A program made the translations under genes and the position numbers. The notes beneath the pieces are model-generated. The model ran no database searches, was not told the DNA's origin, and saw nothing but the letters and a program-made list of their open reading frames with translations. This document shows positions 10,324 to 41,469 of a stretch of DNA of 64,000 nucleotides, piece after piece. Positions within the stretch are counted from its first letter, which is position 1. Every line of letters begins with the position of its first letter. This DNA is from Hymenobacter nivis (GTDB taxonomy: Bacteria > Bacteroidota > Bacteroidia > Cytophagales > Hymenobacteraceae), in NCBI RefSeq assembly GCF_006439025.1, contig NZ_RCYZ01000003.1:188127-252126 (forward strand). Direction: 5' to 3'.

Positions 10324-11346
10324 CTAGCCCCGCAGCGACGAGGCGCGCACCAGCAAATCGGGCTGAAGCAGCACCCGGCGCGGCGACACGTTCTGGCGCT
10401 TTTCGCCCAGAATTTCGAGCAGCAGGCGGGCGGCGGCCTGGCCCATTTGCTCGCAGCGCTGGTCCACGGTGGTGAGCATGGGCTCGGTGAACGACGAAAA
10501 CAGCTCGTTGCTGAAGCCCGCCAGGGCCACGTCCTGGGGCACGCGCAGGCCGCGCTTTTTCAGCACCTGCAGGGCCCCCACGGCCGAAACATCGCTGGCC
10601 GAAAACACAGCGTCGGGCCGCACCGGCAGCTTCAGCAGCTGCTCCATGCCCTGGCTGCCGTCCTCCAGACGCATGTCGCTGGTAAAAACCAGGGCCTCGT
10701 CGAAGGGCACGTCGTACTCGCGCAGGGCATCGAGGTAGCCCTGGCGGCGGTTTTTGTAGATGTTCAGGTGCTGGGGCCCCGCGAAGTGGGCAATGCGCCG
10801 GCAGCCCTGGGCCAGCAGGTGCCGCGTGCTCTGGTAGGCCCCTTCGCGGTCGTCGAGCACCACGGCGTTCACGTCGCGCCCCTCCAGAATGCGGTCGAAA
10901 AACACCAGCGGCAGGTCGCGCTTAGCAGCCTTGTCGAAGTGCTTGAAGTCGCGCGTGGTGCGGGCCAGCGAGACCAGAATGCCCTCCACCTGGGCGTTGA
11001 TGAGGGTTTCGATGTTCTTGCGCTCGTGGGCCACGTCTTCGTTCGACTGGCAGATGAGGATGTTGAAGCCCGCCTTGGTGGCCACCGTTTCGATGCCCTT
11101 CACCACCATCGTAAAGAAGTGGCCGTCGATGTGCGGCACCAGCACGCCCAGCATGTTGCTGCGGCCCTTGCGCAGGCCCGCGGCCATGTGGTTGGGGTGG
11201 TAATTCAGCTCCTTGGCCAGCTTGGTGACGCGCTTTTTGGTGGCGTCGCTGATGCTGGGGTGGTTGCTCAGGGCCCGCGAAATGGTGGACACCGACACGC
11301 CCAGGGCCGTGGCCATGTCGGTGATGGAAGCGCGCTTGGAAGCCAA
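10324..11346 (-). CDS. LacI family transcriptional regulator
   Basis: A 340-residue LacI/GalR repressor. The helix-turn-helix ITDMATALGVSVSTISRALS starts about residue 8, followed by the hinge helix NYHPNHMAAGLRKGRS and a periplasmic-binding-protein-like sensor domain (NMLGVLVPHIDGHFF to the C-terminus). No ATG lies at the right distance before the helix-turn-helix. The TTG at 11346 gives MASKRASITDMA, normal spacing for the family. It lies downstream of a GH43 gene on the same strand. CAAACGTTTG palindromes at 12637 and 18691 fit LacI-family operators, so it probably senses a sugar released by the neighbouring glycosidases and represses both divergent regions. Confidence 0.9.
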   Translation of the reverse strand: MASKRASITDMATALGVSVSTISRALSNHPSISDATKKRVTKLAKELNYHPNHMAAGLRKGRSNMLGVLVPHIDGHFFTMVVKGIETVATKAGFNILICQSNEDVAHERKNIETLINAQVEGILVSLARTTRDFKHFDKAAKRDLPLVFFDRILEGRDVNAVVLDDREGAYQSTRHLLAQGCRRIAHFAGPQHLNIYKNRRQGYLDALREYDVPFDEALVFTSDMRLEDGSQGMEQLLKLPVRPDAVFSASDVSAVGALQVLKKRGLRVPQDVALAGFSNELFSSFTEPMLTTVDQRCEQMGQAAARLLLEILGEKRQNVSPRRVLLQPDLLVRASSLRG

Positions 11347-11454
11347 CGGGCGGGGGGGGTTAGAAAGGAAGCAGAGAAAACCGCAGCGCAAATATCCACG
11401 CAAAATCTGTGCAATCCCGCGGGGCACCACCGGCACCCCACCGGGGCCCCGCGC

Positions 11455-12537
11455 CTAGCCCGGCAGCGGCTGCGGCGCGTAGGTGGGCCCCAGGCAGCGG
11501 GGCCCTTCGTTCGTCCAGGCCAGCTTATCGATACAGAGCTGGCGCTCCGTCATTTGCGGATTCCAGGCGTGGTACACCAGGTACTCGGTGCGGCCGTCGG
11601 GGCCCAGGGTGTGCGAGTGGTGGCCGGGGCCCCGCACGTGGCCCGGCACCGCGTGCAGCACCCGCGCCCCGGCCCCGCCGCCGGCCTCCGAGTAGGGCCC
11701 CAGGACGGTGTCGGCCACGCAAAAATCGACGCCGTAGCGGTCGGTCAGGAAGTTGGCCCCGCTGTAAAAGCAGTAGTATTTGCCGCCGTGGCGGCGCACG
11801 AAAGGCCCCTCCAGCGTGTGCCACTGCGCAAACACTTGGTTATCATAGAGCGGCATCCGGCGGTTGGCCTCAAAAATCGTCCAGGGGTGGCGGGCGCGCA
11901 GCACGGTACGCGGCTGCTGGGCCAGGCGGGTCATGGTGGCCAGGCGGTCCACGGCCAGGCCGGTGCCGGGGAAGTAACCGCCGTCCGAATCAATGAAATC
12001 GCGGGCGTAGAACAAGTACCACTGCCCGTCGTCGTCGCGGAACGGGTGCGCGTCGATGGTGAACTTACTTTCCGGCACGTCGAGCGCCGCCACTTCGGTG
12101 TAGGGCCCCTGGGGCAACTGGCTGGTTGCTACGTGCAAGCGGTGCCCCTGGGTGGCCGCAATGGCCCCGCCGCCCCGCGAGTAGTACATGTAAAACGTGC
12201 CTTCGTGCAGCACCACCTCGGGGGCCCAAAAGTCGAGCCCCGCGCTGCCGGGCGGCGGCACCAGGGCCCCGCCCGCGTCGCGCCATTTCACCAAATCCTT
12301 GGAAACCAACACGCTGAAGATGCGCCCGTCGGCCGTGCGCCCCTGCCCGGTGGTGCCAAAGGCGTAGTACGTGCCCTGGTGCAGCAGCACGGCCGGATCG
12401 GGGAAGTTGCGCGGCACCACGGGGTTGGTGTAGGTGCGGGCGGCGGCGCGGGCGTTGCGGCCGGGCAGCAGGGCCAGCAGGCCGCCGGCCGCGGCGGCCA
12501 GGCGCAAAAAGGTGCGGCGGGAATCGGGAACGGGCAT
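11455..12537 (-). CDS. Glycoside hydrolase family 43, Tat-exported
   Basis: A 360-residue GH43-type five-bladed beta-propeller. The start is the ATG at 12537, giving an N-terminal SRRTFLRL twin-arginine signal followed by an alanine/leucine-rich stretch. The propeller begins with TYTNPVVPRNFPDPAVL (catalytic-base Asp context), then FWAPEVVLHEGTFYMYYS and, late in the chain, a FEANRRMPLYD region; PGHHSHTLG near the end matches family metal-site loops. Likely activity is an exo-acting arabinofuranosidase, xylosidase or galactosidase. It is divergent from another GH43 operon across a region with LacI operators and lies upstream of lacI. Confidence 0.85.
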   Translation of the reverse strand: MPVPDSRRTFLRLAAAAGGLLALLPGRNARAAARTYTNPVVPRNFPDPAVLLHQGTYYAFGTTGQGRTADGRIFSVLVSKDLVKWRDAGGALVPPPGSAGLDFWAPEVVLHEGTFYMYYSRGGGAIAATQGHRLHVATSQLPQGPYTEVAALDVPESKFTIDAHPFRDDDGQWYLFYARDFIDSDGGYFPGTGLAVDRLATMTRLAQQPRTVLRARHPWTIFEANRRMPLYDNQVFAQWHTLEGPFVRRHGGKYYCFYSGANFLTDRYGVDFCVADTVLGPYSEAGGGAGARVLHAVPGHVRGPGHHSHTLGPDGRTEYLVYHAWNPQMTERQLCIDKLAWTNEGPRCLGPTYAPQPLPG

Positions 12538-12636
12538 GGGGCGGGCAGGAAAAGGGAAACGGGCCAAAACGGGCAGTGGGCGGCGGTAGCGCCTGGCTCA
12601 CAGGGGCCAGCCAAAGGTGGCATTTTCCAAATATAG

Positions 12637-12652
12637 GTGCAAACGTTTGCAC
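12637..12652. promoter_or_regulatory. LacI-type operator O1 (perfect 16-bp palindrome)
   Basis: GTGCAAACGTTTGCAC is a perfect palindrome with the central CG step and AAACGTTT core typical of LacI/GalR operators. It lies 100 bp upstream of the minus-strand GH43 start and overlaps a candidate -33 TTTG on the plus strand. Confidence 0.8.
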
Positions 12653-12748
12653 GAATCGCAAAATAACCTATACCTTGCGGGCGGTGACGCCACGGTGGTT
12701 TCGGCCCGGCCCGGAATAGCATTTTTTGCTCCTTTGGGGTGGTTCGTG

Positions 12749-12760
12749 GCGAACGTTTGC
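12749..12760. promoter_or_regulatory. LacI-type operator O2
   Basis: GCGAACGTTTGC shares the AACGTT core with O1 and has one mismatched base pair between its halves. It lies 134 bp upstream of the plus-strand GH43 start. The pairing with O1 suggests cooperative or looped binding. Confidence 0.6.
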
Positions 12761-12893
12761 TTGCGCGGGCGCCGGGGCGCTTCCCGGGGTCCGCGCCCCC
12801 TCCTGCCCGGCGGCTACCCCGGCGGCGGGCGGGGCCCCTGCCCGCCCCCTCCCACCCGGCGCCCCCCACGCCTTTGCCTCCGCCCTCCTGCCC

Positions 12894-13913
12894 ATGCGTT
12901 GCCAACTGTTGCTTTTGCTGGCGCTGCTCGGGGCCCGGCCGGCCGCCCAAGCCCAGGGCCCCGCGGCCGGCCGCACCTTCACCAACCCCTTGCAGGCCGA
13001 CGGGCCCGACCCGTGGGTGGTGCGCCACGGCGGCTACTACTACCACACCCACACGACGGGCAAAAACATCACCCTCTGGAAGTCAAAAACCCTTGAGGGC
13101 CTGAAGGATGCCCTCGGCACGGTGGTGTGGACGCCGCCCGCCGCGGGGCCCCACTCCACCCAAATCTGGGCCCCCGAGCTGCACTTCCTCGGCGGCAAGT
13201 GGTACCTCTACTACACGGCTTCCGACCGGGCCAACGCCGGCGACCAGACGCGCTACGTGTTTGTGCTGGAAAACGCCAGCCCCGACCCTACCGCTGGCAC
13301 CTGGGCCGACAAGGGCCGGGTGAACACCCGCTACCCGGGCCTCGACGGCTCGGTGTTTGCGCACGGCGGCCGGCGCTACTTCCTGTATTCGGCCTACGTG
13401 GGGGCCCAAAGCGTGCTGGCCATTGCCCCGATGACCAATGCCTGGACGCTGGACGCAGCCCGCGAAACCATCATCGCCCGGCCCACCCACGCCTGGGAAA
13501 AAGGCGGCGGCCGCCAGATTCTGGAGGGCCCCGAGTTTCTGGCGGGTAAGCAAGGGCAGCTTTTTATCGTGTACTCGGCCAGCGCCTGCTGGGACGATAA
13601 CTACTGCCTGGGCCTGCTCACGGCCCGCCCCGGGGCCGACCCGCTGCGGGCCGATTCGTGGGCGAAAGCGCCGGAGCCGGTCTTCCGTCCCTCGGCCGAA
13701 AACGGCGTGTGGGGCACCGGCCACAACGCCTTCACCACCTCGCCCGACGGGCGCGAAAACTGGCTCATCTACCACGCCAAGGCCGCCGCCGATGGCAAGT
13801 GCGAGGGGCGCAGCACCCGGGCCCAGCGCTTCGGCTGGCACCCCGACGGCACCCCCGACTTTGGGGCCCCGGCCGCGTTGGCCACGCCCCAGGCCGTGCC
13901 TTCGGGCGAATAA
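12894..13913 (+). CDS. Glycoside hydrolase family 43 (secreted)
   Basis: A 339-residue protein starting at the ATG at 12894 (MRCQLLLLLALLGARPAAQAQ), a clear signal peptide. GH43 features are the base-Asp context NPLQADGPDPWVVRHGGYYY, IWAPELHFLGGKWYLYY, the LDGSVFAHGGRRY pKa-modulator Asp context, and the acid-Glu context ILEGPEFL. The sequence is strongly similar to the GH43 at 15114-16217, and both flank a cellulase-like gene, so the pair looks like a local duplication. It is the first gene of a three-gene operon read from the LacI-operator region. The likely activity is alpha-L-arabinofuranosidase or similar; specificity is unknown. Confidence 0.87.
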   Translation: MRCQLLLLLALLGARPAAQAQGPAAGRTFTNPLQADGPDPWVVRHGGYYYHTHTTGKNITLWKSKTLEGLKDALGTVVWTPPAAGPHSTQIWAPELHFLGGKWYLYYTASDRANAGDQTRYVFVLENASPDPTAGTWADKGRVNTRYPGLDGSVFAHGGRRYFLYSAYVGAQSVLAIAPMTNAWTLDAARETIIARPTHAWEKGGGRQILEGPEFLAGKQGQLFIVYSASACWDDNYCLGLLTARPGADPLRADSWAKAPEPVFRPSAENGVWGTGHNAFTTSPDGRENWLIYHAKAAADGKCEGRSTRAQRFGWHPDGTPDFGAPAALATPQAVPSGE

Positions 13914-13960
13914 CTATTCCATGTCTACCTGCTTTCCAATTCCTTTTCCCTTTTTCCCGC

Positions 13961-15073
13961 ATGAAGAAATTCTCGTTCCTGCTTTTGCTCGTGGCGCTGC
14001 TGGGGGCCCCCGGGGCCCACGCCCAAAAGGTTAAAACCAAAACCAAGGGCGCCGCCGCGGCCACGGCCGCCGCCCAGGCCCCCCGCTGGACCACCGCCAA
14101 GGCCAACGCCTGGTACGCCGCCCGCCCGTGGATGTCGGGCGCCAACTTCACGCCCAGCACGGCCATCAACCAGCTTGAAATGTGGCAAGCCGCCACCTTC
14201 GACCCGCAAACCATCGACAAGGAGCTGGGCTGGGCCGAGGGCATCGGCTTCAACACGATGCGCGTGTTTTTGCACAGCCTGGCGTGGAAGGAAGACCCGG
14301 CGGGCTTCAAAAAGCGCGTGGGCGACTACCTGGCCATTGCCGACAAGCACCACATCAGCACCATTTTGGTGTTTTTCGACGATTGCTGGAACAAGGACCC
14401 CAAGGCGGGGCCCCAGCCGGCGCCCAAGCCCGGCGTTCACAACTCGGGCTGGGCCCAGGACCCCGGCGACCCGGCCTCGCGCGACTCGGCCACCTTCGCG
14501 CAGCTGCGGCCCTACGTGACGGACGTGCTCACGAGCTTCGCCCACGACAAGCGCATCTTGCTCTGGGACTTGTACAACGAGCCGGGCAACAACGGCAAGG
14601 GCCTGGCCTCGCTGCCGCTGCTGCGCAACGTGTTTGCCTGGGCCACCGCGGTGCGCCCCGACCAGCCCCTGAGCGCCGGCCTCTGGAACTGGGAACCCGC
14701 CTACGGGCCCCTGAACACGTACCAGGCCCTGCACTCCGACGTCATCACCTACCACTGCTACGACGAGGTGCCGCTGCACGAGCGCATCATTTCGCTGCTC
14801 GCCACCCACGGCCGCCCGCTACTCTGCACCGAGTACATGGCCCGGCCCCGCAACTCGCGCTTCGTCAACATCATGCCCCTGCTGAAGAAGTACAACGTGG
14901 CCGCCATCAACTGGGGATTGGTGGACGGCAAAACAAACACCAAGTACCAGTGGGACGTGCCGATTGCCGACGGCTCGGAGCCCACCGAGTGGTTCCACGA
15001 GGTGTTCCGCAAAGACGGCACCCCCTACCACCAGGACGAGGCGGACCTGATCAAGAAAACCAACGGCAAGTAG
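13961..15073 (+). CDS. Cellulase-family (GH5-like) glycosyl hydrolase, secreted
   Basis: A 370-residue clan GH-A type TIM-barrel glycosidase. The signal peptide is at residues 1-22 (MKKFSFLLLLVALLGAPGAHA). The body starts with RPWMSGANFTPSTAINQLEMW; WDLYNEPGN supplies the acid/base Glu and LLCTEYMAR the nucleophile Glu. Relatives in Bacteroidota are often annotated as 1,4-beta-xylanase or cellulase-family proteins without biochemical proof. The ATG at 13961 lies 47 bp after the preceding GH43 stop. The upstream open frame overlapping that GH43 has no role. It sits between two GH43 paralogues in one operon. Confidence 0.82.
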   Translation: MKKFSFLLLLVALLGAPGAHAQKVKTKTKGAAAATAAAQAPRWTTAKANAWYAARPWMSGANFTPSTAINQLEMWQAATFDPQTIDKELGWAEGIGFNTMRVFLHSLAWKEDPAGFKKRVGDYLAIADKHHISTILVFFDDCWNKDPKAGPQPAPKPGVHNSGWAQDPGDPASRDSATFAQLRPYVTDVLTSFAHDKRILLWDLYNEPGNNGKGLASLPLLRNVFAWATAVRPDQPLSAGLWNWEPAYGPLNTYQALHSDVITYHCYDEVPLHERIISLLATHGRPLLCTEYMARPRNSRFVNIMPLLKKYNVAAINWGLVDGKTNTKYQWDVPIADGSEPTEWFHEVFRKDGTPYHQDEADLIKKTNGK

Positions 15074-15113
15074 GGCCCCGGGGCCCTACCCCTCACTTTA
15101 CTACGGCTTTGCG

Positions 15114-16217
15114 ATGCGCACTTTTCGAGGAATGACGCGGCTTTTGGGCGCACTACTGCTGGCGCTGGCGCTCCTGCCCGCCTGCACCCGGCAGCCGCGG
15201 GGCCCCGGGCCCCTGGTGCCGGCCACGGGGGCCCCGCCGGCGGCCACGTTCACCAACCCGCTGCTGCCGGTGGGGGCCGACCCGTGGAGCATCTACCACG
15301 ACGGCTACTACTACTACACCAACACGACCGGCGACAACCTCACGCTCTGGAAAACCAAGAACCTGGCTGACCTTAAGCACGCCGAGCACCGCGTGGTGTG
15401 GACGCCGCCCGCCACGGGGCCCAACAGCCAGCACATTTGGGCCCCCGAGCTGCACTTCCTGCGCGGCAAGTGGTACCTCTACTACGCCGCCGACGCCGGC
15501 GATAACCCCTCGCACCGCCTCTGGGTGCTCGAAAACGCCTCGCCCGACCCGCTGCTGGGCACCTGGACCGACCGCGGCAAGCTGGCCGACCCGGCCGCCG
15601 ACATGTGGGCCATCGACGGCTCGGTGTTCATCAACAATGGGCGGTTGTACCTCGTCTGGTCGGGCTGGGACGGGCGCGTGAACGGCCGCCAGGACATTTA
15701 CCTGGCCCCAATGAAAAACCCCTGGACGCTGGCCGGCCCGCGGGTGCGCATCTCCACCCCCACCTACCCCTGGGAGCGCAACGGCGACCTGCACGGCGCC
15801 AACGACCCGGCCCACGTGGCCGTGAACGAGGGCCCCGAAGTGATTAGGCACGGCAACAAGCTGTTTTTGGTGTACTCGGCCAGCGGCTGCTGGACGGATT
15901 TTTACGTACTCGGCATGCTTACTGCCAACGCGAACAGCGACTTGCGCAACCCCGCGTCGTGGACGAAAACTCCCACGCCCGTGTTCCAGCAGTCGCCCGA
16001 AAACAAGGTGTACGCGCCGGGCCACAACTCCTTTTTCACCTCGCCCGACGGCAAGGAGAACTGGTTCCTTTACCATGCCAACAGCGCGCCCGACCAGGGC
16101 TGCGGCCCCAAGCGCACCCCGCGGATGCAGCGCTTCACGTGGCGCCCCGACGGCACGCCCGACTTCGGCCAGCCCGTGCCCGCCGACCAAGTACTGGCCG
16201 TGCCCTCGGGCCAGTAG
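15114..16217 (+). CDS. Glycoside hydrolase family 43, lipoprotein
   Basis: A 367-residue GH43 enzyme. The N-terminus has a hydrophobic stretch ending LALLPAC, a lipobox with Cys about residue 23, so it is probably anchored to the outer membrane. Catalytic contexts are NPLLPVGADPWSIYHDGYYY (base Asp), IWAPELHFLRGKWYLYY, AIDGSVFINNGRLY (pKa modulator) and NEGPEVI (acid Glu). It shares long stretches with the GH43 at 12894. It is the last gene of the GH43-GH-GH43 operon and ends at a strong bidirectional terminator facing galT. Confidence 0.88.
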   Translation: MRTFRGMTRLLGALLLALALLPACTRQPRGPGPLVPATGAPPAATFTNPLLPVGADPWSIYHDGYYYYTNTTGDNLTLWKTKNLADLKHAEHRVVWTPPATGPNSQHIWAPELHFLRGKWYLYYAADAGDNPSHRLWVLENASPDPLLGTWTDRGKLADPAADMWAIDGSVFINNGRLYLVWSGWDGRVNGRQDIYLAPMKNPWTLAGPRVRISTPTYPWERNGDLHGANDPAHVAVNEGPEVIRHGNKLFLVYSASGCWTDFYVLGMLTANANSDLRNPASWTKTPTPVFQQSPENKVYAPGHNSFFTSPDGKENWFLYHANSAPDQGCGPKRTPRMQRFTWRPDGTPDFGQPVPADQVLAVPSGQ

Positions 16218-16230
16218 CCCGCCCGGCCCC

Positions 16231-16281
16231 CAACCGACAAAAGCCCCGCCAATCGATGATTGGCGGGGCTTTTGTCGGTTG
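16231..16281. terminator. Perfect 24-bp hairpin, bidirectional terminator
   Basis: Arms 16231-16254 and 16258-16281 are perfect complements with a 3-base loop. An AAAAGCCCCGCC core gives T-runs on both strands. It separates the GH43 operon (+) from galT (-). Confidence 0.88.
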
Positions 16282-16298
16282 TTGCAACCCGTGGGGCC

Positions 16299-17411
16299 CT
16301 ACTTGGCGGGCGCTTCGGGCGGAGCCACTTCGTCGGCCACGGGCGCGGCGGTAGCGGCCGCCGTTTGCTTGTAGTGGACTTCGGGTAATGAGCGCAGACG
16401 TTCGGCGGCCCACTCGGCCGTCACGTCGCGCTGGGGGTTGGCCAGCATCTCATAGCCCACCATGAACTTGCGCACCGTGGCCGAGCGCAGCAGCGGCGGG
16501 TAGAAGTGCATGTGCAGGTGCCACTCGGGGTGCTCCTGGCCGTCGGTGGGGCGCTGGTGCCAGCCGGCCGAGTACGGGAACGACAGCTCGAATAGGTTGT
16601 CGTAGCGAATGGTGAGGCGGCGCAGGATGTCGGCCAAGTCGTTCTTCTCGGCGTCGTTCAGCAGCTCCAGCGAGGCCACGGCGCGGCGCGGCAGCAGCAG
16701 CGTTTCGAAGGGCCAGGTGGCCCAGAACGGCACCAGCACCACCCACGTATCGTTTTCGATGACGACGCGCTGCTTTTCGCGCAGCTCGGTGGCCAGGTAG
16801 TCGGTGAGCAGCGTGCGGCCGTGCTCCTCGAAGTACTTGGCCTGCTGCACGGTTTCCTTGGCGGGGTCAACCGGCACGGTGTGCTGGGCCCAGATTTGGC
16901 CGTGCGGGTGCGGGTTCGAGCAGCCCATGATGAAGCCCTTGTTCTCGAAAATCTGCACGTAGTTGATGTCCGGCCGGGCCCCCAGGGTCTGGTACTCGTC
17001 CACCCACACGTCCACCACCCCGCGGATGGCCTCCGGGGTCATTTCGGGCAAGGTCAAGTCGTGCCGCGGCGAGAAGCAGATGACGCGGCCCACGCCGGTT
17101 TCGGCCTCCGCAATCAGCAGGTTGTCAATGTTGATGCCGCCCGCGGGCCCGTCGGGCTGCAAGGCCGCAAAGTCGTTGTCGAACCGGAACGTGCCGGTGT
17201 ACGGCGGGTTGTGGGCGCCGTTGGCGCGCACGTTGCCGGGGCACAGGTAGCAGGTGGGATCGTAGGCGGGGCGGTTGTCGGGGGGCGTTTTTTCCTGCTG
17301 GCCCTGCCAGGGGCGCAGGGCGCGGTGGGGCGACACCAGCAGCCAGTCCCCGGTGAGCGGGTTGTAGCGGCGGTGCGATTGGTGGGTGGGGTCGAAGGCG
17401 GAATCGGACAT
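16299..17411 (-). CDS. galT: UDP-glucose--hexose-1-phosphate uridylyltransferase (GalT)
   Basis: A 370-residue GalT, the second Leloir enzyme, exchanging UMP between UDP-glucose and galactose-1-phosphate. The start is the ATG at 17411 (MSDSAFDPT). [22 protein letters not shown] and CYLCPGN near the N-terminus suit the zinc site. The active-site triad is in [10 protein letters not shown] with the nucleophilic His between Pro and Gly. [14 protein letters not shown] and the C-terminal [13 protein letters not shown] are conserved. It follows galK by 36 bp on the same strand, forming a galKT operon that would take galactose freed by the alpha-galactosidase of this locus. The C-terminal alanine-rich tail is a lineage extra. 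Confidence 0.96.
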
Positions 17412-17447
17412 GGGCGGGAAACGCAAAAGGGAGGAAAAGGGATGGAT

Positions 17448-18617: not shown

Positions 18618-18690
18618 GGCGGGAGGGGATGAAAGGGTGGGGAAATAATTGCTAGACAAGCCTAAAGATGGGAAATTTTATTAATTAGAA

Positions 18691-18700
18691 CAAACGTTTG
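18691..18700. promoter_or_regulatory. LacI-type operator O3
   Basis: CAAACGTTTG is identical to the core of O1 at 12637-12652. It abuts the TAAATTTG -7-like element on the GH43 side, so binding would block that promoter. Confidence 0.7.
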
Positions 18701-18756
18701 CATTAAATTTGATCTCATTTTTATTATAATACGCTTGTATCCAAGTCATTATGTCA

Positions 18757-18772
18757 ACAAAAACGTTAGCAC
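18757..18772. promoter_or_regulatory. Degenerate LacI-type operator O4
   Basis: An AACGTT core with right half TTAGCAC, one base from the O1 half TTTGCAC; the left half is weak. Its centre lies 69 bp from O3. Confidence 0.35.
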
Positions 18773-18959
18773 ATTTACCCATAAAAAGAGTCCATTTAAC
18801 GTGCGTTTCATGAAGCTTTCAGGCAGTAATTTGCCCGGTAAAATCGGCTAACCCCGCGGGCCCGCGCTTGGGCGAACGGCTGGCCTTGCCAGCGGCGGCC
18901 GCGCCGCTTGCTGGGGCCCTGGCGGGTGGCTTAGGGCCCCGGTTCATTACTTTCGGCGC

Positions 18960-24084: not shown

Positions 24085-24099
24085 AATCCGTTGCGAGCC

Positions 24100-24684: not shown

Positions 24685-24701
24685 CTTTTTTTTGCGCCAA
24701 T

Positions 24702-33706: not shown

Positions 33707-35539
33707 ATGAAATTACATTTAATTGACCTCCTGATCATCGCGGCGTATTTGCTGACGACGGTGTTCATCGGCGTGTACTACAGCAAAAAGGCGCGCGAAA
33801 ACAAGGACAGCTACATGCTGGGCGGCCGCACGCTGCCCTGGTACAAGCTGGGCCTGAGCGACGCCTCCGACATGTTCGACATCAGCGGCACGATGTGGAT
33901 GGTGAGCCTGTGCTTCGCCTACGGCATGAAAAGCATCTGGATTCCGTGGCTCTGGCCGGTGTTCAACCAGGTGTTTCTGATGATGTACCTCTCGCGCTGG
34001 CTGCGCCGCTCGGGCGCCAGCACCGGGGCCGAGTGGCTGGCCACGCGCTTCGGCACCAAGGGCCCCGGCGTGCTGGCCTCGCACCAGGTGGTCATCGCCT
34101 TTGCCCTGCTCAGCTGCCTGGGCTTCCTGGCCTACGGCTTCGTGGGGCTGGGCAAATTCGTCGAGATTTTCATCCCCTGGGAGCTAGTGAAAGGGTACGT
34201 GCCCTTCGCCGTGGCCCCACAGTACGTGCCGCACGTGTACGGCATCGTGTTCACGCTCTTTGCCATGTTCTACGCCATCGTGGGGGGCATGCACAGCATC
34301 GTGCTCGGCGACATGATTAAGTACGCCATCATGACGGTGGCCTGCGTGGCCATTGCCGTCATTGCCTACACCAACCTGCAGGGCAAGCAGTTGGCCGTGC
34401 CCAACGGCTGGTTCAACCCCTTCTTCGGCTGGCGGCTGGGGCTCGATTGGTCGAAGCTCATCCCGGAAGTGAACAGCAAGATTGCCAGCGACGGCTACTC
34501 GCTGTTCGGCATCTTCTTCATGATGATGGCCTTCAAGGGCGTGTTTGCCTCGCTGGCGGGCCCCGCGCCGAACTACGACATGCAGAAAATCCTGAGCACC
34601 CGCTCGCCCGAAGACGCCAGCAAGATGAGCGGCTTCGTGTCCATCATCCTGCTGCCGATTCGCTACTCGCTCATCATCGGCCTCACCATCCTGGGCCTGC
34701 TCTATTACCACCAGATGAACCTGAAGGCCCCCGACGGGACCATCGACTTCGAGCGCATTCTGCCGCTCACCATCAACAACTTTTTGCCCGCCGGGCTGGT
34801 GGGCCTGGTGCTCACGGGCCTGCTGGGGGCCTTCATGGGCACGTTCAGCGGCACCGTGAACGCGGCCCAGGCCTACATCGTGAACGACATTTACCTCAAG
34901 TACGTGAACCCCCAGGCCCCCACCGGCCGCATCATTTCGATGAACTACCTGGTGGGCGTGGTGGTGGTGGCCGTGGGCGTGGCCCTGGGCTTCATCGCCA
35001 AAGACGTGAACACGGTGCTCCAGTTCATCGTGTCGGCGCTCTACGGCGGCTACATCGCCTCCAACGTGCTGAAGTGGCACTGGTGGCGCTTTAATGCCAC
35101 GGGATTTTTCGTGGGCATGCTCGCGGGCATCGTGGCGGCGCTGGTGTTCGGGGCCCTCATCCCGGCCGCCAACCTGCTGTACTGGTTCCCGCTGCTGTTC
35201 GGCATTTCGCTCACGGGCTCCATCGTGGGCACCTATATGTCGCCGCCCACCGAGGCCGCGGTGCTCCACTCGTTCTACAAAACGGTGCGGCCCTGGGGCT
35301 TCTGGGGCCCCGTGCTGGCCCAGGTGCAGGCCCAGGACCCCGGCTTCCGGCCCAACCCCAACTTCGGGCGCAACATGTTCAACATTGTGCTCGGCATCGT
35401 GGCCCAGCTCTGCCTCACCATCCTGCCCATGTACCTGCTGCTGAGCCAGCACGTGCCGCTGGCCATCACAATCGCCATCCTGGTGGTGGTGGGCCTCATC
35501 CTGAAAAAAACCTGGTGGGAGCGCCTCAGCGACGACTAG
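33707..35539 (+). CDS. Sodium:solute symporter (SSS family)
   Basis: A 610-residue polytopic membrane protein starting at the ATG at 33707 (MKLHLIDLLIIAAYLL). About 13-14 hydrophobic segments are visible. Family signatures include SYMLGGRTLPWYKLGLSDAS in the first loop, GLGKFVEIF, and GLLGAFMGTFSGTVNAAQAYI. SSS sugar transporters couple uptake to sodium. Placed between mannanases and the mannobiose epimerase/phosphorylase genes, it most likely imports mannobiose or a related disaccharide into the cytoplasm. This substrate is inferred only from context. Confidence 0.92.
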   Translation: MKLHLIDLLIIAAYLLTTVFIGVYYSKKARENKDSYMLGGRTLPWYKLGLSDASDMFDISGTMWMVSLCFAYGMKSIWIPWLWPVFNQVFLMMYLSRWLRRSGASTGAEWLATRFGTKGPGVLASHQVVIAFALLSCLGFLAYGFVGLGKFVEIFIPWELVKGYVPFAVAPQYVPHVYGIVFTLFAMFYAIVGGMHSIVLGDMIKYAIMTVACVAIAVIAYTNLQGKQLAVPNGWFNPFFGWRLGLDWSKLIPEVNSKIASDGYSLFGIFFMMMAFKGVFASLAGPAPNYDMQKILSTRSPEDASKMSGFVSIILLPIRYSLIIGLTILGLLYYHQMNLKAPDGTIDFERILPLTINNFLPAGLVGLVLTGLLGAFMGTFSGTVNAAQAYIVNDIYLKYVNPQAPTGRIISMNYLVGVVVVAVGVALGFIAKDVNTVLQFIVSALYGGYIASNVLKWHWWRFNATGFFVGMLAGIVAALVFGALIPAANLLYWFPLLFGISLTGSIVGTYMSPPTEAAVLHSFYKTVRPWGFWGPVLAQVQAQDPGFRPNPNFGRNMFNIVLGIVAQLCLTILPMYLLLSQHVPLAITIAILVVVGLILKKTWWERLSDD

Positions 35540-35660: not shown

Positions 35661-36893
35661 ATGGCCTCCCCTGTATTCAACCGCCGCCTGCAGCAGCTGC
35701 AAGCCCACCACGACCAGCTCGTGCACCGCGCCAACCCCCGCGAGGAGGCCGGCAACGGCATTTTTGACCGCTACGCCCACCCCGTGCTCACGGCCGCCCA
35801 CGCCCCGCTGGCCTGGAAGTACGACCTGAACCCGGCCACCAACCCCTTCCTGATGGAGCGCATCGGCGTGAACGCCACGCTGAACGCGGGGGCCCTGAAG
35901 TGGCACGACAAGTACGTGGTGGTGGCCCGCGTGGAGGGCAACGACCGCAAGTCGTACTTCGCCGTGGCCGAAAGCCCCAACGGCGTGGACAACTTCCAGT
36001 TCTGGGACCGCCCCATCACCATGCCCGAAACCGCCGAGCCCGACACCAACGTGTACGACATGCGCCTAGTGGCCCACGAAGACGGCTGGGTGTACGGCCT
36101 GTTTTGCACCGAGCGCCGCGACCCCGCCGCCTCCGACGCCGACCAATCGGCCGCGCTGGCCAAGTGCGGCATCGCCCGCACCAAGGACCTCGTGGCCTGG
36201 GAGCGCCTGGCCGACCTCACCACCAACTCGGCCCAGCAGCGCAACGTGGTGCTGCACCCCGAGTTCGTGGACGGCCAGTACGCGTTTTACACCCGCCCGC
36301 AGGACGGCTTCATTGAGGCCGGTTCGGGCGGCGGCATCGGCTTCGGCCTGTCGCCGTCCATCGAAAACGCCACGGTCATGCAGGAGGTCATCGTGGACAA
36401 AAAGCAGTACCACACCATTTCGGAGCTGAAAAACGGCCTGGGGCCCGCCCCCATCAAAACCGAGCAGGGCTGGCTGCACCTGGCCCACGGCGTGCGCAAC
36501 ACCGCTGCTGGCCTGCGCTACGTACTGTACGTGTTCATGACGGACTTGCACGATTTGACGAAGATTACCCACAAGCCGGCTGGTTATTTCCTGGCTCCGG
36601 AGGGCGACGAGCGGGTGGGCGATGTGTCGAACGTGGCTTTCGGCAACGGCTGGATTGCCGAGCCCGACGGCCGCGTGTTCATCTACTACGCCTCCTCCGA
36701 CACGCGCCTGCACGTGGCCACCACCACCCTGGCGCAGCTGCTCGACTACGTGGTGAACACCCCCGAAGACGGCCTACGCTCGGCCACGTCGGTGCAGGCC
36801 ATCAACGCGCTGGTGGACCGCAACGAGACCTTTCTGGGCGGCTCCGACGTGGCCGCCCACGCCGTGGCCCACGTGGTGGCCAAGAGCCTGTAA
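35661..36893 (+). CDS. GH130 4-O-beta-mannosyl-glucose phosphorylase
   Basis: A 410-residue GH130 family phosphorylase starting at the ATG at 35661 (MASPVFNRRLQQLQ). No signal peptide is seen, so it is cytoplasmic. NPFLMERIGVNATLNAGA and VARVEGNDRKSYFAVAES are typical of GH130 subfamily 1. The catalytic Asp133 lies in TNVYDMRL. The C-terminal half has LGPAPIKTEQGWLHLAHGV. Members cleave mannosyl-1,4-glucose with phosphate to mannose-1-phosphate and glucose. The gene directly downstream encodes the epimerase that makes this substrate from mannobiose, reproducing the known Bacteroides pathway. Confidence 0.93.
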   Translation: MASPVFNRRLQQLQAHHDQLVHRANPREEAGNGIFDRYAHPVLTAAHAPLAWKYDLNPATNPFLMERIGVNATLNAGALKWHDKYVVVARVEGNDRKSYFAVAESPNGVDNFQFWDRPITMPETAEPDTNVYDMRLVAHEDGWVYGLFCTERRDPAASDADQSAALAKCGIARTKDLVAWERLADLTTNSAQQRNVVLHPEFVDGQYAFYTRPQDGFIEAGSGGGIGFGLSPSIENATVMQEVIVDKKQYHTISELKNGLGPAPIKTEQGWLHLAHGVRNTAAGLRYVLYVFMTDLHDLTKITHKPAGYFLAPEGDERVGDVSNVAFGNGWIAEPDGRVFIYYASSDTRLHVATTTLAQLLDYVVNTPEDGLRSATSVQAINALVDRNETFLGGSDVAAHAVAHVVAKSL

Positions 36894-36972: not shown

Positions 36973-38139
36973 ATGTACCAAGCCGCCGATTTTCAGCGCG
37001 AACTTGACCGCATCCTCTCCTACTGGGCCACCCGCGCCGTGGACCCCACCGGCGGCTTCTACGGCCGCCTCGACGCCGACGACGCCGTGGTGCCGGGGGC
37101 CCCCAAGGGCGCGGTGCTCAACGCCCGCATCCTGTGGACGTTCGCAGCCGCCTGCAACCACGCGCCCGATCCCGCGCGCCTCGCCCTGGCCCGCCGCGCC
37201 TACGACTACATCCGCCAGCACTTCGTGGACGAAGAATTTGGCGGCGTGTACTGGACTGTGGATGCCCAAGGGGCCCCGCTCGACACCAAAAAGCAGGTGT
37301 ACGCGCTGGCCTTCACCGTCTACGGCCTGGCCGAGTACTACCGCGCCAGCGGCGACGCGGGGGCCCTGGCGCTGGCCCAGGCCCAGTACCGCGCCATCGA
37401 AGCCCACAGCTTCGACGCGGCCCGGGGCGGCTACCTGGAGGCATTCGCGCGCGACTGGCAGCCGCTGGCCGACCTGCGCCTGAGCGCCAAGGATGCCAAC
37501 GAGAAGAAGACCATGAACACCCACCTGCACGTGCTGGAGGCCTACGCCAACCTGTACCGCGCGTGGCCCGACGCCGGCCTGGCCCAGCAAATCAGGGCCC
37601 TGCTGGGCGTGTTCGACACGTATATTATCGACCACGGCACGCACCACTTGCAGCTGTTTTTCGACGAAAATTGGGCGTCAAAGTCCGAAGTCGTTTCCTA
37701 CGGCCACGACATTGAGGCCGCCTGGCTGCTGCTCGAAGCCGCCGAGGTGCTGCGCGACGACGCCCTCGTGGCCCGCCTCCGGCACCTGGCGGACCCCATG
37801 GCCGCGGCCGCCGCCGAGGGCCTCGACGCCGACGGGGGCCTCAGCTACGAGCTGGAGCCCGGCCACCTGGTGCGCGAAAAGCACTGGTGGGTGCAAGCCG
37901 AGGCCCTTGTGGGTTTTCTGAACGCCTACCAGCTCACCGGCAACCCGCAGTTTATGAACTACTTCGACGGCGTGTGGCAATTCGCCCAGGCCCACATCCT
38001 CGACCAGCAGCACGGCGAATGGGTGTGGGGCGTGGAAGCCGACCACGCCCGAATGGCGGGCCAGGACAAGGCTGGCCTCTGGAAGTGCCCGTACCACAAC
38101 GGCCGCGCTTGCCTCGAAATCCTGCGCCGCAGCGCCTGA
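36973..38139 (+). CDS. AGE family epimerase (cellobiose/mannobiose 2-epimerase)
   Basis: A 388-residue (alpha/alpha)6-barrel enzyme of the N-acylglucosamine 2-epimerase/cellobiose 2-epimerase family, starting at the ATG at 36973 (MYQAADFQRELD). Catalytic His contexts are KKTMNTHLHVLEAYANLY, VSYGHDIEAAWLL and REKHWWVQAEALVGF. There is no signal peptide. Beside GH130 and mannanases its role is almost certainly conversion of beta-1,4-mannobiose to mannosyl-glucose; cellobiose would be an alternative substrate. Confidence 0.93.
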   Translation: MYQAADFQRELDRILSYWATRAVDPTGGFYGRLDADDAVVPGAPKGAVLNARILWTFAAACNHAPDPARLALARRAYDYIRQHFVDEEFGGVYWTVDAQGAPLDTKKQVYALAFTVYGLAEYYRASGDAGALALAQAQYRAIEAHSFDAARGGYLEAFARDWQPLADLRLSAKDANEKKTMNTHLHVLEAYANLYRAWPDAGLAQQIRALLGVFDTYIIDHGTHHLQLFFDENWASKSEVVSYGHDIEAAWLLLEAAEVLRDDALVARLRHLADPMAAAAAEGLDADGGLSYELEPGHLVREKHWWVQAEALVGFLNAYQLTGNPQFMNYFDGVWQFAQAHILDQQHGEWVWGVEADHARMAGQDKAGLWKCPYHNGRACLEILRRSA

Positions 38140-38170: not shown

Positions 38171-39856
38171 ATGGATAGAAGGAATTTTCTTCAAATTTCC
38201 GGCTTGGCGCTAGGAAGTTTAGTAACGCAGGCCGCCATGGGGGCCCCGGCGGGCCCCGCCGAAACCGTGGAATTGCCCACCCGCGTGCTCGTGCGGCTCG
38301 GCCCCGGCCCGGAGGCGCAGGCCCTGGTGGCGTCCGACGGCCTCCGCACCTGGACCCACCGCGACGTGACGGTGCGCCTCACGCCCCAGGCCGGCGGGGG
38401 CCTGGCGGTGGCAGTGCAGTCGCCCACCCTGCCCCTGCACGCCGTGCAGCTGCACTGGCGCTACGCCGTACCAGCCGCGGCCACCGTGCTCGGCGACGCC
38501 TGGGAACGCACCTACGGCGACGTGCAGTTTCAGCCACCTGCCCTGGCCCGCAAGCTGCCCTGGTACCTGGTGCAGCACGACCCGCGCACCGGCCGCACGG
38601 CTTGCTTTGGGGTGCGCACGGGGGCCCGCGCCATGTGCTACTGGCAGGTGGGCGGCGGCCAGCTACAGCTGACGCTCGACACCGAGAGCGGCGGGGTGGG
38701 CGTGCGGCTGGGGGCCCGCACGTTGGCCGCCGCCGCGGTGCTGGCCACCACCGGCCGGCCCGGCGAAAGCGCCTTCGCCGCGGCCCATCGCTTCTGCGGC
38801 CTGATGAGCCCGGCCCCGCGGCTGCCGCGCCAGCCCGTGTACGGCATCAACGACTGGTACTTTGCTTACGGCAACAACTCGGCCGACCTCATTTTGCAGC
38901 ACACCCGGCTGCTGGCCGACTTGATGCCAGCCGGCGACAACCGGCCATTTTCGGTTATCGACGCGGGCTGGGCGGCCTACGCCCCCGAGCTGCCCAACGA
39001 TGGCTCATGGAACGACGACTTCTCGCGGCCCAACGCCAAGTTCCCCGACATGAGCAAGTTGGGCAACGACATCCGGCAGCTGGGCATGCGGCCGGGGCTG
39101 TGGATGCGCCCGCTCTGCGCCAGCCACACCACGCCAGCCAACCGGCTACTGCCCCGCATTCCGGGCCGCAACGACCCCAAAAGGCCCGTGCTCGACCCCA
39201 CCATCCCCGAGAACCTGGCCGGCATCCAACGTAATTTTGCCACCTACCAAGCGTGGGGCTACGACATGGTGAAGCACGACTTCAGCACCTACGACCTGCT
39301 GGGCCGCTGGGGCTTCGACATGAAAGACCGCCTCACGCCCGCCGGCTGGCGCTTCCACGACGACACCCGCACCACGGCCGAGATTGTGCTGGCCCTGTAC
39401 CAGGCCATCCGCGACGCGGCGGGGCCCCTGTACATCATCGGCTGCAACACCGTGGGCCACCTCGCAGCGGGCCTGTTCGAGTTGAGCCGCACCGGCGACG
39501 ACACCAGCGGCCAGGAATGGGACCGCACCCGCAAAATGGGCGTCAACACGCTGGGCTTCCGGCTGGTGCAGCACAACCAATTTTTTGCCGTCGATGGCGA
39601 CTGCGTGGGCATCACACCCAAGGTGGCGTGGGAACGCAACGAGAAATGGCTGCGCTTGCTGGCCGGCAGCGGGGCCCCGTTGTTCGTGTCGGCGCAGCCG
39701 GAAGCCATCGGCGCCGCCCAAAAAGAAGCCCTAAAAGCCGCTTTCGCCCAGGCGGCGCGCCCGCAGCCGGTGGGCGAGCCCCTCGACTGGCTCACCGCGC
39801 TATGCCCCACCCAGTGGCGGCTCGACGGCAAAACCACGGCCTTCGACTGGAGCTAA
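38171..39856 (+). CDS. GH36-type alpha-galactosidase, Tat-exported
   Basis: A 561-residue clan GH-D glycosidase. The N-terminus MDRRNFLQISGLALGS carries a twin-arginine signal. A beta-rich domain occupies residues about 35-210 and a TIM barrel follows: YGINDWYFAYGNNSADLI, FSVIDAGWAAY, GMRPGLWMRPLCAS, and GYDMVKHDFSTYDLLG with the probable nucleophile Asp370. TGDDTSGQEWDRTRK is the probable acid region. It would remove alpha-1,6-galactose from galactomannan and so supply galKT. The family (GH36 or a GH27/36 relative) is fairly clear; exact subfamily and specificity are not. Confidence 0.85.
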   Translation: MDRRNFLQISGLALGSLVTQAAMGAPAGPAETVELPTRVLVRLGPGPEAQALVASDGLRTWTHRDVTVRLTPQAGGGLAVAVQSPTLPLHAVQLHWRYAVPAAATVLGDAWERTYGDVQFQPPALARKLPWYLVQHDPRTGRTACFGVRTGARAMCYWQVGGGQLQLTLDTESGGVGVRLGARTLAAAAVLATTGRPGESAFAAAHRFCGLMSPAPRLPRQPVYGINDWYFAYGNNSADLILQHTRLLADLMPAGDNRPFSVIDAGWAAYAPELPNDGSWNDDFSRPNAKFPDMSKLGNDIRQLGMRPGLWMRPLCASHTTPANRLLPRIPGRNDPKRPVLDPTIPENLAGIQRNFATYQAWGYDMVKHDFSTYDLLGRWGFDMKDRLTPAGWRFHDDTRTTAEIVLALYQAIRDAAGPLYIIGCNTVGHLAAGLFELSRTGDDTSGQEWDRTRKMGVNTLGFRLVQHNQFFAVDGDCVGITPKVAWERNEKWLRLLAGSGAPLFVSAQPEAIGAAQKEALKAAFAQAARPQPVGEPLDWLTALCPTQWRLDGKTTAFDWS

Positions 39857-39903
39857 CCGGCCCACGCTCCGGCCGCGCGTCCGCCTTTCTCAACCCACCC
39901 GCC

Positions 39904-41469
39904 GTGTCCTGCTTATTGCTTGCCCTGTCGTTGCTGTTGCTGCCGGCCGCCGGGGCCCTGGCCCAAACGTATTCCGTGCGTGACTACGGGGCCCTGGCCG
40001 ACGGCAAAACCCTGGTCACGGCCGCCATCCAGCGGGCCATCGATGCTTGCAACCGCGGCGGGGGCGGCACCGTGGAAGTACCGGCCGGCACATACATCGT
40101 GGGCACGATTGCGCTGAAAACCAACGTGAACCTGCACTTGGGCAGCGGGGCAGTGCTCCGGGGCAGCGCCAACCTGGACGACTACCTCGCCTACACCCTG
40201 CCGGGGTACGGGCGCAACCGCTACGGCATCCTCTACACGGCCAACGCCGCCAACGTGGCCCTCACCGGGCACGGCACCATCGACGGCAACAACGGCGTGT
40301 TTTACGACTTTGACCAAGCCAAAAAGCTCGACACCGCCGCCACGCGCTACACCCGCCAGCGCGGCAACTTCCGCCGCTTGCCCGCGGGCGAAGACATCGG
40401 CGACGGGCCCGTGGTGCCCAAGGACCGGCCCCGGCAGATGGTCATCTTTTCGCAGTGCGTGAACGTGCGCGTCGCCGATGTGTCGCTGCTCAATTCGCCG
40501 TTCTGGACGCTGCACTTTGCCGATTGCGACGCCGTGAACGTGGACGGCATCCGCCTGTGGACCAATTTCTTGGTACCCAACGCCGACGGCATCGACGTGA
40601 CCAGCAGCCGCAACGTGACCATTGAGAACTGCGACATCCGAGCCGGCGACGACGCGCTGGCCATCACCGGCTACGACCACCACTTCGAGTTGCCGGGCTT
40701 CACGGGCGTGCGCCACGCCTGCGAGAACATCAACGTCAGCAACTGCAACCTGCAGTCGTATTCCAGCGGCATCCGCATCGGGTTCCTGGACCAGAACGTG
40801 GTGCGCAACGTCAACGTGAGCAACTGCAACATCACCAACTCGACGCGCGGCATCGGCATTTTCCTGCGCGACGAAGGCTCGTTGGAAAACCTGACGTTCA
40901 CCAACATCCGCATCGAAACCAAGCTGCGCACCGGCGACTGGTGGGGCAACGGCGAACCCATCCACATCTCGGCCGTGCGGGGCAAGGAAAACGTGCGGCT
41001 GGGCCACATCCGCAACGTCACCTTCACCAACGTCAGCTGCCGGGCCGAAAACGGCATCTTGCTCTACGGCAGCGCCGAGAGCCCGCTGCAAGACATCACC
41101 TTCAACAACCTGAAGCTGGAGTTCGTCGATAGCCCGCTCAACGACGTGGCCGGCGGCAACGTGGACCTGCGCGGGGCCCTGGGGGCCCCAACCAGTCTGT
41201 TTGCCCGCGACATCCCCGCCTTCCTGGCCGAGCACGTGCACGGGCTTATCCTCACCGATTTTAAGCTGGACTGGACAAAACCCCGGGCCACTTTTCTCAC
41301 CAACGGCGTCGAAGTCAACCACTTCAAAAACGTGCGAATCGGCCACTTCGTCGGCACCGGGGCCCCCAACAACCTCACCGCCCGCCCTGTGGTGCTGCGC
41401 GACGGCACCGCCGCCACCGTGGACCGTCCCAAGGCCGATGTGCAGCGCCGCGACGTACGCAGCCGCTAA
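39904..41469 (+). CDS. GH28 family glycosidase (polygalacturonase-like), secreted
   Basis: A 521-residue right-handed beta-helix protein. The GTG at 39904 gives MSCLLLALSLLLLPAAGALAQ, a good signal peptide directly before TYSVRDYGALADGK, the usual GH28 mature start. GGGGTVEVPAGTY follows. The active-site blocks NADGIDVTSSRNV and AGDDALAI provide the catalytic Asp residues, and SSGIRIGF stands where polygalacturonases have a GHG/RIK site, so specificity may differ from homogalacturonan. It is the last gene of the long plus-strand run and ends at a 33-bp hairpin. Confidence 0.87.
   Translation: MSCLLLALSLLLLPAAGALAQTYSVRDYGALADGKTLVTAAIQRAIDACNRGGGGTVEVPAGTYIVGTIALKTNVNLHLGSGAVLRGSANLDDYLAYTLPGYGRNRYGILYTANAANVALTGHGTIDGNNGVFYDFDQAKKLDTAATRYTRQRGNFRRLPAGEDIGDGPVVPKDRPRQMVIFSQCVNVRVADVSLLNSPFWTLHFADCDAVNVDGIRLWTNFLVPNADGIDVTSSRNVTIENCDIRAGDDALAITGYDHHFELPGFTGVRHACENINVSNCNLQSYSSGIRIGFLDQNVVRNVNVSNCNITNSTRGIGIFLRDEGSLENLTFTNIRIETKLRTGDWWGNGEPIHISAVRGKENVRLGHIRNVTFTNVSCRAENGILLYGSAESPLQDITFNNLKLEFVDSPLNDVAGGNVDLRGALGAPTSLFARDIPAFLAEHVHGLILTDFKLDWTKPRATFLTNGVEVNHFKNVRIGHFVGTGAPNNLTARPVVLRDGTAATVDRPKADVQRRDVRSR

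Follow-up and report, generated by a model that had tools for sequence, protein, structure and literature searches.

How can a member of the Bacteroidota take up beta-mannan when the locus that degrades it encodes no SusC/SusD pair? The question is raised by a 64-kb stretch of the Hymenobacter nivis genome (contig C17, NZ_RCYZ01000003.1, positions 188,127-252,126; hereafter the window, whose coordinates are counted from its first base). The interval from 10.3 to 41.5 kb is a composite of two halves, one of arabinan/galactose type associated with a LacI regulator (10.3-20.6 kb) and one for beta-mannan associated with an AraC regulator (21.2-41.5 kb); because TetR, alpha/beta hydrolase and MOSC genes (24.1-26.4 kb) separate the halves, it is not a single catabolic unit. 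Carbohydrate-active enzymes (CAZymes) are co-localized with their own regulator, as in a Bacteroidota polysaccharide utilization locus (PUL), and the adjacent SusC and SusD genes that define a SusCD-anchored PUL are lacking in the window. Sequence comparisons make it probable that the mannan half of this composite of two SusCD-less modules belongs to a dispersed AraC regulon using a remote SusCD, most likely an orphan pair on contig C6.

The genome (G000) comprises 5.44 Mb in 23 contigs, here given C numbers; G numbers denote the genomes of relatives. C17 is 577 kb long and the GC content of the window is about 65%. Protein calls were made by Pfam, NCBIfam, PDB-sequence and fold searches. Signal peptides, lipoboxes and RR-type N-termini were judged by eye, and the localizations and the substrates of transporters and enzymes given below are predictions. 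Mannosylglucose phosphorylase (MGP), the marker used to find mannan cores, was detected at E <= 1e-40 in 39 of 150 family genomes, including that of H. nivis, and in 29 of the 120 genomes of the genus. Forty other MGP neighbourhoods from 38 genomes were compared, with about 20 kb per side and some truncated by contig ends.

Absence of a SusC/SusD pair from the locus

The H. nivis genome contains 72 matches to the TonB plug domain (PF07715) and 29 to SusD_RagB (PF07980), none of which falls in the window. A tblastn search of the window detected no SusCD relic (best E value 0.098); the queries were SusC/SusD proteins from G098, G088, G021, G082 and G059 and from H. nivis itself, counted as 12 from five relatives, six own (three pairs) and the G098 SusC/SusD. 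Thus, the first-pass annotation of this DNA, which saw no TonB-dependent receptor or SusD-like lipoprotein in the locus, was right. Pfam scans of the locus also revealed no protein resembling a hybrid two-component system (HTCS) regulator, and the AraC-family regulator carries no other domains. The nearest SusCD pairs on the contig lie at C17:134.9-139.2 kb, about 49 kb upstream of the window, and at C17:330-334 kb, about 78 kb downstream.

An assembly error that dropped a SusCD segment from the locus is highly improbable. Both halves do carry SusCD in many relatives, but the locus is contiguous within its contig, the mannan half of the sister genome G098 is also without SusCD, and the closest H. 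nivis counterparts of the two missing SusD types share no more than 39-40% identity with them and lie on other contigs.

A promoter element shared with a remote SusC/SusD pair

In most relatives, the intergenic region between the AraC gene and the first gene of the mannan core contains a 23-bp box, A[AG]nAA[AT]TGATAAAATAGTATTA[CT], located 25-26 nt before TTTG or TTTA. A position weight matrix (PWM) trained on 33 sites from the 40 relatives' neighbourhoods, with H. nivis excluded, was scanned against 520,424 bases of the H. nivis genome in stretches rich in SusC genes, with the reversed sequence as control. The best site (21.6 bits) lies in the SusC promoter of the C6 pair, followed by the mannan promoter of the window (20.8 bits) and the SusC promoter at C1:894 kb (18.3 bits). 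Ten sites reached at least 10 bits, compared with three in the control, whose maximum was 13.4 bits. C6 ranks first among the 29 SusC upstream regions of the genome, and 300 Markov resamples of these regions gave a maximum of 18.5 bits, never 21.6.

The mannan operon promoter (31021-31071, +) consists of the 20.8-bit box, a 25-nt spacer and TTTG. The only other site above 8 bits in the window precedes a GH26 mannanase gene, GH26a (21220-21270, +; pattern match at C17:209360), and combines a 12.5-bit box with TTTA; the spacer measures 25 nt in the C6 SusC, GH26a and mannan operon promoters alike. The pattern TAGTATTA-N25-TTTR occurs exactly three times in 5.44 Mb, namely in these three promoters. 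With a spacer of N24-26, the box core and TTTR occur six times genome-wide and not at all in the control; the N26 matches at C7:66428, C19:339387 and C23:13046 were rejected as promoters, having no gene on the right strand behind them as judged from lists of open reading frames (ORFs).

The association of the box with SusC genes extends to other genomes. In 1.55 Mb of relatives' sequence there are 62 PWM sites of at least 17 bits, many of them training sites, and the first labelled gene within 900 bp encodes GH26 in 27 cases, SusC in 15, an SSS-family symporter in 12, GH5 in two, GH130 in one and another product in five. Eleven of the 15 sites that precede SusC lie outside the training set, nine of them with 25-26 nt spacing. 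The GH26a genes of G014, G003 and G097 likewise carry a box with such spacing, and in front of the C6-type SusC of G059 is a site of 16.7 bits whose spacer measures 26 nt.

The first-pass annotation had held that a co-regulated SusCD pair just outside the window would overturn its view of the locus. The only such pair found in silico is far off: whichever way the contigs are ordered, about 200 kb or more separate C6 from the locus, and about 223 kb or more separate it from the mannan operon. The closest pair linked to the window, at C17:135 kb, sits with a GH16 gene and a GH5 gene bearing a type IX secretion system (T9SS) tail, has no box (-0.1 bits), and was rejected.

Relationships of the candidate transporters

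Two SusCD pairs of the genome stand out, with no CAZyme among those of their neighbours that were scanned, which were a part of the total. C6:69.7-74.4 kb encodes an orphan SusC and SusD, and C2:91.4-97.6 kb encodes an orphan SusC, a SusD and a protein resembling surface glycan-binding protein (SGBP) SGBP_B. In the SusC tree, C6 is sister to the SusC in the G059 mannan cluster (support 0.998), then to the H. nivis protein on C12, and then to the mannan-linked SusCs of G111, G115 and G097. C2 is sister to the other SusC of G059, which lies beside its mannan core (0.992), and then to that of G149.

Linkage to MGP varies among relatives. C2-type and C6-type SusDs lie, respectively, 19 and 6 kb from MGP in G059, 23 and 5 kb in G156, 6 and 5 kb in G202, and 6 and 26 kb in G149; a C6-type SusD is also found near MGP in G186 (5 kb) and G198 (11 kb). 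In the remaining genomes (for example, G180 and G201) the two types lie a long way from MGP or on a different contig. The sister genome G098, assembled in 2 contigs, has a C6-type SusD (90% identity) about 246 kb from MGP on the same contig. The C2 type occurs in 15 of the 120 genus genomes, in 11 at 67% identity or more and in four at 37-40% (G088, G082, G021 and G189), these four all beside MGP. MGP is present in every C2-type genome except G136 (14/15; Fisher 1.5e-9, phylogeny ignored) and in 22 of the 47 C6-type genomes (Fisher 4.9e-6, phylogeny ignored), a type that includes a more widespread paralogue.

The C2 SusC-SusD-SGBP set might itself be the main importer, with C6 serving another purpose. 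Its SusD is sister to the SusD in the G149 mannan locus (support 1.0) and is the best H. nivis match to the SusD of the G088 mannan operon (39% identity, 290 bits versus 109 for the next), and, among the compared loci, the protein most similar to its SGBP is found in the G149 mannan locus (63% identity). Together with the position of its SusC beside that of G059 and its co-occurrence with MGP, this is consistent with a role in mannan uptake. However, the boxes of the C2 promoter are all weak (13.3 and 13.2 bits), with no TTTG at the usual spacing, and G098 has the same locus as the window yet no C2-type SusD at E 1e-70. C2 as the main importer is therefore considered unlikely.

Still less likely, at a small fraction of the weight given to C6, is that another enzyme locus with its own SusCD serves mannan in trans. 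The obvious example is the C18 locus (SusC-SusD-GH30-GH3-GH26), which holds the third GH26 of the genome, a protein whose PDB matches include mannanases as well as other GH26 enzymes. Its SusC promoter, however, scores only 6.3 bits, and, according to passages of PMC5217682, deletion of a GH26/GH3/SusCD locus of Bacteroides ovatus left growth on galactomannan and glucomannan unaffected. With a weak box and a different enzyme set, C18 was not favoured as a remote mannan PUL. It lies within C18:197000-216500, at 8067-17859 (-) of that stretch, and shares GH26, GH3 and SusCD with B. ovatus bacova_03386-03406, whose role is described as unclear in the same passages (PMC5217682). A SusC-SusD-GH130 cluster on C19 was also rejected: its GH130 scores 155 bits against PF04041, compared with 66 for the MGP of the window, and is thus of another GH130 type.

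Several observations weigh against a regulon that includes C6. The SusD tree does not repeat the SusC result, since C6 SusD groups with its own paralogue at C12:693 kb (support 0.934) and the mannan-linked SusD of G059 comes next; this paralogue has no box (1.6 bits). The co-occurrence tests take no account of phylogeny, and 25 genomes of the genus that lack MGP have the C6 type, in part represented by the paralogue type of C12:693 kb. The C1:894 kb SusC promoter reaches 18.3 bits, a score attained in one of the 300 resamples, and the GH26a box taken alone (12.5 bits) does not exceed the control maximum. The PWM was chosen independently of the C6 site; the spacer pattern, in contrast, was devised once that site was known, so that the pattern search is not a blind test. 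Promoter scoring covered SusCs paired with SusD. The weak boxes of C2 point the same way, as does the G059 C2-type SusC, which has no site of at least 9 bits in front of it. Finally, that the AraC regulator binds the box is something we infer from the conservation of the box beside the AraC gene across the family.

The C1:894 kb pair (at 10510-15146, -, of the stretch C1:884000-903999) has no CAZyme among the four neighbours scanned. It is sister to the SusCDs of relatives' arabinan halves, and its 18.3-bit box overlaps a AACGTTTG element. Conceivably, this orphan pair is under LacI control and substitutes for the one missing from the arabinan half.

Conservation of the two modules in relatives

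The AraC, SSS symporter, MGP and epimerase genes occur together in 39 of the 40 mannan neighbourhoods (G063 shows no epimerase), and AraC is opposite in strand to the mannan core in all 40. Within the stretches compared, 24 neighbourhoods encode a SusC-SusD pair, 18 of them no more than 7 kb from SSS-MGP, and 16 do not; the 16 include G003, whose pair is cut by the edge. When 11 of the 16 were widened, a pair was found farther out in four (G098, G042, G027 and G054a) and none in seven. SusCD-less mannan cores are thus common in the family, and the arrangement in the window is not singular.

These SusCD-less cores, together with the T9SS tail of GH26a, are what would be expected if no SusCD were involved, with GH26a yielding di- and trisaccharides outside the cell, porins allowing their diffusion and the SSS symporter importing them. 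Three observations argue against this: the mannan-promoter box with the same spacer also fronts the orphan C6 SusC; the same SusC types lie beside the mannan core in some relatives; and GH5, GH26b, GH36 and the esterase bear export signals and no T9SS tail in Pfam scans, a combination that suggests entry of oligosaccharides longer than disaccharides into the periplasm. SusCD-free uptake is therefore improbable, and slightly more so in its strict form, in which the mannan module works without any SusCD, GH26a finishes digestion outside, porins pass the products and the C6 box is incidental. If it were true, the 16 neighbourhoods would represent recurrent SusCD-free glycan use in Bacteroidota. 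The first-pass annotation had proposed uptake through porins or a remote SusCD; the evidence favours the remote SusCD, with C6 and C2 as concrete candidates, so that uptake without SusCD is not the preferred interpretation.

In the mannan half of G088, G021 and G082, SusCD occupies precisely the place between AraC and GH5. The core tree groups the window with G098 as its sister and then with G082, and G088, G021, G056 and G059 come next. SusC and SusD of G082, G088 and G021 each form one clade in their trees; most simply, therefore, SusCD at this position would be ancestral, and the window, G098, G056 and G059 are without it.

The arabinan half was compared in 20 GH43d neighbourhoods, mostly the best-scoring ones; GH43d was matched in 96 of the 120 genus genomes. 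The recurring set, whole or partial, is LacI, GH43a / GH43b, GH5-like, GH43c / galT, galK / SusC, SusD, GH43 / GH43d. SusC-SusD-GH43 directly precedes GH43d in 18 of the 20, with galK beyond them in nine of the 18; the two neighbourhoods without this arrangement are G082, which kept GH43 and has no SusCD, and G166, where both are absent. In G098, whose MGP is 94% identical, the whole locus of the window is collinear and SusC-SusD-GH43-GH43 lies between galK and GH43d, a place occupied in the window only by the gap at 18618-18959. The composite locus thus carries SusCD in the arabinan half only (G098), in the mannan half only (G082) or in neither (window). The arabinan-half SusC and SusD of G098 share 80-81% identity with their G059 counterparts and 46-59% with the proteins of the remaining 17 neighbourhoods in which the pair occurs, compared with 67% identity between the GH43d proteins of the window and G059. 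G098 may thus have regained its arabinan SusCD cassette by transfer between species.

Gene content of the mannan half and a predicted pathway

Nearly every gene named in the first-pass annotation is backed by Pfam, NCBIfam, PDB-sequence or fold results: the five GH43, two GH26, GH5, GH130, AGE-type epimerase, SASA esterase, GH28, galT and galK by Pfam or PDB, and the SSS symporter, LacI and AraC regulators by Pfam. The lower coordinates of these genes or of their open frames are 11455, 12726, 15114, 18960 and 26630 (GH43), 21253 and 32478 (GH26), 31047 (GH5), 33410 (SSS), 35583 (GH130), 36934 (epimerase), 27815 (esterase) and 39253 (GH28). The annotation had read the whole as a galactomannan locus; the mannan half is real, but only one of the two halves concerns mannan.

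GH26a (21373-23166, +) has a signal peptide, a CBM35 carbohydrate-binding module (PF16990), a GH26 domain (PF02156; PDB relative 3zm8) and a T9SS type A tail, which scores 24.0 bits in TIGR04183, just above the cut-off of 23, and 23.8 bits in PF18962, below the cut-off of 27. GH43e (26630-27628, -; PF04616, E 5.2e-50) is followed by a SASA/SGNH carbohydrate esterase with a signal peptide (27815-29812, +; PF03629; PDB 9h4u 'Carbohydrate esterase FI8', E 3e-167) and by the AraC-family regulator (29976-30851, -; HTH_18), the proposed activator of the mannan regulon. Downstream of the operon promoter, GH5 (31152-32456, +) has a signal peptide and resembles exo-beta-mannosidases and mannanases; its best PDB match is 1uuq (Man5A, presumably from Cellvibrio; E 6e-96), after which the PDB-sequence search places it near exo-beta-1,4-mannosidases. 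GH26b (32478-33611, +; PF02156) also has a signal peptide; its best PDB match is 4zxo (E 1e-96), which we take to be BoMan26A, and NCBIfam gave no match and hence no T9SS tail.

The core of the B. fragilis/B. ovatus type, made up of symporter, MGP and cellobiose 2-epimerase, follows. The SSS-family sodium:solute symporter (33707-35539, +; PF00474; TIGR00813 under its cut-off) is predicted to reside in the inner membrane. GH130 (35661-36893, +) is of the MGP type: its top two PDB matches, 3was (E 1e-176) and 5ay9 (E 6e-150), are MGPs, and the third reaches only E 6.5e-26. The epimerase (36973-38139, +), in which no signal peptide was seen, has 9l8i and 3wkf as best PDB matches (E about 1e-120) and is of the cellobiose/mannobiose 2-epimerase type rather than AGE, with E values of 1e-120 to 1e-82 versus 1e-37 at best for N-acylglucosamine 2-epimerases; its NCBIfam EpiA score is 397.5 bits, under the 800-bit cut-off. 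GH130 and the epimerase are predicted to act on mannosyl-glucose and mannobiose, respectively.

The protein encoded at 38171-39856 (+) has an RR-type N-terminus and no Pfam or PDB sequence match. By predicted fold it is a GH36-type alpha-galactosidase, in agreement with the first-pass call, which sequence families alone do not support: its AlphaFold2 model (with 31 homologues; pLDDT 89.3) matches 1zy9 best in Foldseek (E 6e-24, query TM 0.65, 15% identity), and the leading matches, at 13-20% identity, are alpha-galactosidases of GH36 type from Thermotoga and Thermus. A KxD motif (K368, D370), presumably the GH36 nucleophile motif, is invariant across 32 sequences. The nearest named homologues are in Hymenobacter coccineus (91%), H. 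caeli (75%) and Hymenobacter sp. UV11 (70%). MGP or epimerase lies nearby, within the stretch compared, in only five of the 80 named loci of this protein; thus, the GH36-like gene alone is no marker of the mannan system. A GH28 pectinase-type enzyme (PF00295, E 3e-25) closes the half, in an open frame at 39253-41469 (+) whose true start, judged by eye, is at about 39.9 kb.

The mannan half may accordingly be pictured as the output end of the dispersed AraC regulon. The T9SS-tailed CBM35-GH26 enzyme would cleave mannan extracellularly, and the oligosaccharides would cross the outer membrane through the unlinked SusCD, most likely that of C6, possibly helped by the SusC-SusD-SGBP set of C2. Trimming by GH36, the esterase, GH26b and GH5 would follow in the periplasm, and the symporter would take in the disaccharide. 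Cellobiose 2-epimerase would turn mannobiose into mannosyl-glucose, from which MGP would produce mannose-1-phosphate and glucose; galactose would be handled by galK/galT.

Gene content of the arabinan-type half and neighbouring genes

The LacI-family regulator (10324-11436, -; Pfam LacI and Peripla_BP) adjoins GH43a in G098, G082 and G136 too. GH43a (11455-12567, -; PF04616, E 8.5e-46) has an RR-type N-terminus, and GH43b (12894-13913, +; E 1.2e-55), which is divergent from it, a signal peptide. GH43c (15114-16217, +; E 7.7e-71) has a lipoprotein-like N-terminus with a lipobox, and GH43d (18960-20558, +; E 9.9e-65) an additional GH43_C2 domain (PF17851). The gene between GH43b and GH43c (13961-15073, +; ATG at 13961) had been called cellulase-like. 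At the thresholds used, its product, a candidate glycosidase, has no match in Pfam, NCBIfam or PDB sequences and so carries no family assignment; in several relatives it lies beside GH43b and/or GH43c. galT (16299-17411, -) and galK (17448-18617, -) are both identified by Pfam. Two AACGTT-centred palindromes of LacI type, with at least six of nine positions symmetric, occur in the window, one between GH43a and GH43b (12636-12653) and the other in the galK/GH43d gap (18687-18704). In G098 a similar element, seen by eye, lies between galK and SusC.

The TetR, alpha/beta hydrolase and MOSC genes (24091-26390, +; Pfam) lie outside both modules, and the stretch between the modules (23302-26390) also contains an ORF without Pfam match. 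Beside the LacI gene, at 8176-10256 (-), are two outer-membrane barrel genes, encoding OMP_b-brl_2 and an Omp85-family-like protein (48.7 bits, far under the NCBIfam cut-off of 200). Just downstream of the locus (44274-50088, +) are a large GEVED and PKD protein and a second large protein with a CHU_C T9SS tail. Two neighbouring ORFs without Pfam match (51659-52556, +) lie in a patch of lower GC content (58-61% versus about 65%).

Comparison with known systems

PUL catalogues anchored on neighbouring SusC/SusD pairs would miss or mis-assign a system of this kind. Passages of a paper on Hymenobacter (PMC11892949) do not describe the mannan system of the window, and in literature screened by titles and abstract openings no dispersed mannan SusCD is reported for the Hymenobacter family. 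The case makes it possible to test concretely whether, under a single regulator, a glycan locus is able to draw on a SusCD encoded hundreds of kilobases from it, and the promoter signature may serve for assigning orphan SusCDs in this family. Among close relatives, the intracellular core does not change, whereas the mannan transporter may be present, missing, exchanged or unlinked.

The rhamnogalacturonan-II (RG-II) PUL of B. thetaiotaomicron presumably also has a SusCD of its own. In the same species, BT1682/BT1683 provides a precedent for a SusCD pair termed an orphan transporter: the authors suggest, in a passage of PMC6776043, that it allows basal import of the labelled glycan after deletion of the RG-II PUL. 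The glycan differs from that proposed here for C6.

The B. fragilis genes BF0771-BF0774, as we understand them, unite an epimerase, a symporter and a GH26 in one small cluster. Like this mannan cluster (the pathway of Senoura 2011), the window contains MGP, which in B. fragilis is BF0772, of structure 3WAS (PMC8950772, in part). Passages of PMC5094572 report that the B. fragilis locus lacks a possible alpha-galactosidase gene, that a GH26-containing PUL flanks it and that the strains tested did not grow on galactomannan. Unlike in that cluster, the nearest SusCD of the window is tens of kilobases away.

BoManPUL of B. ovatus (bacova_02087-97) encodes an isomerase, a symporter, MGP, a GH36 alpha-galactosidase and two GH26 mannanases, as given in passages of PMC5217682. 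The window shares these pathway genes, and its GH26b has 4zxo as best PDB match. BoManPUL also has SusC, SusD, a protein in the SusE position and an HTCS in the locus (PMC5217682, same passages), whereas the window has neither SusCD nor HTCS in place; there, the regulator is of the AraC type, one mannanase bears a T9SS tail, and an arabinan-type module lies next to the mannan genes. Thus, the locus looks like a known mannan system in scattered, SusCD-less form, with an arabinan-type module attached, rather than a new mode of uptake.

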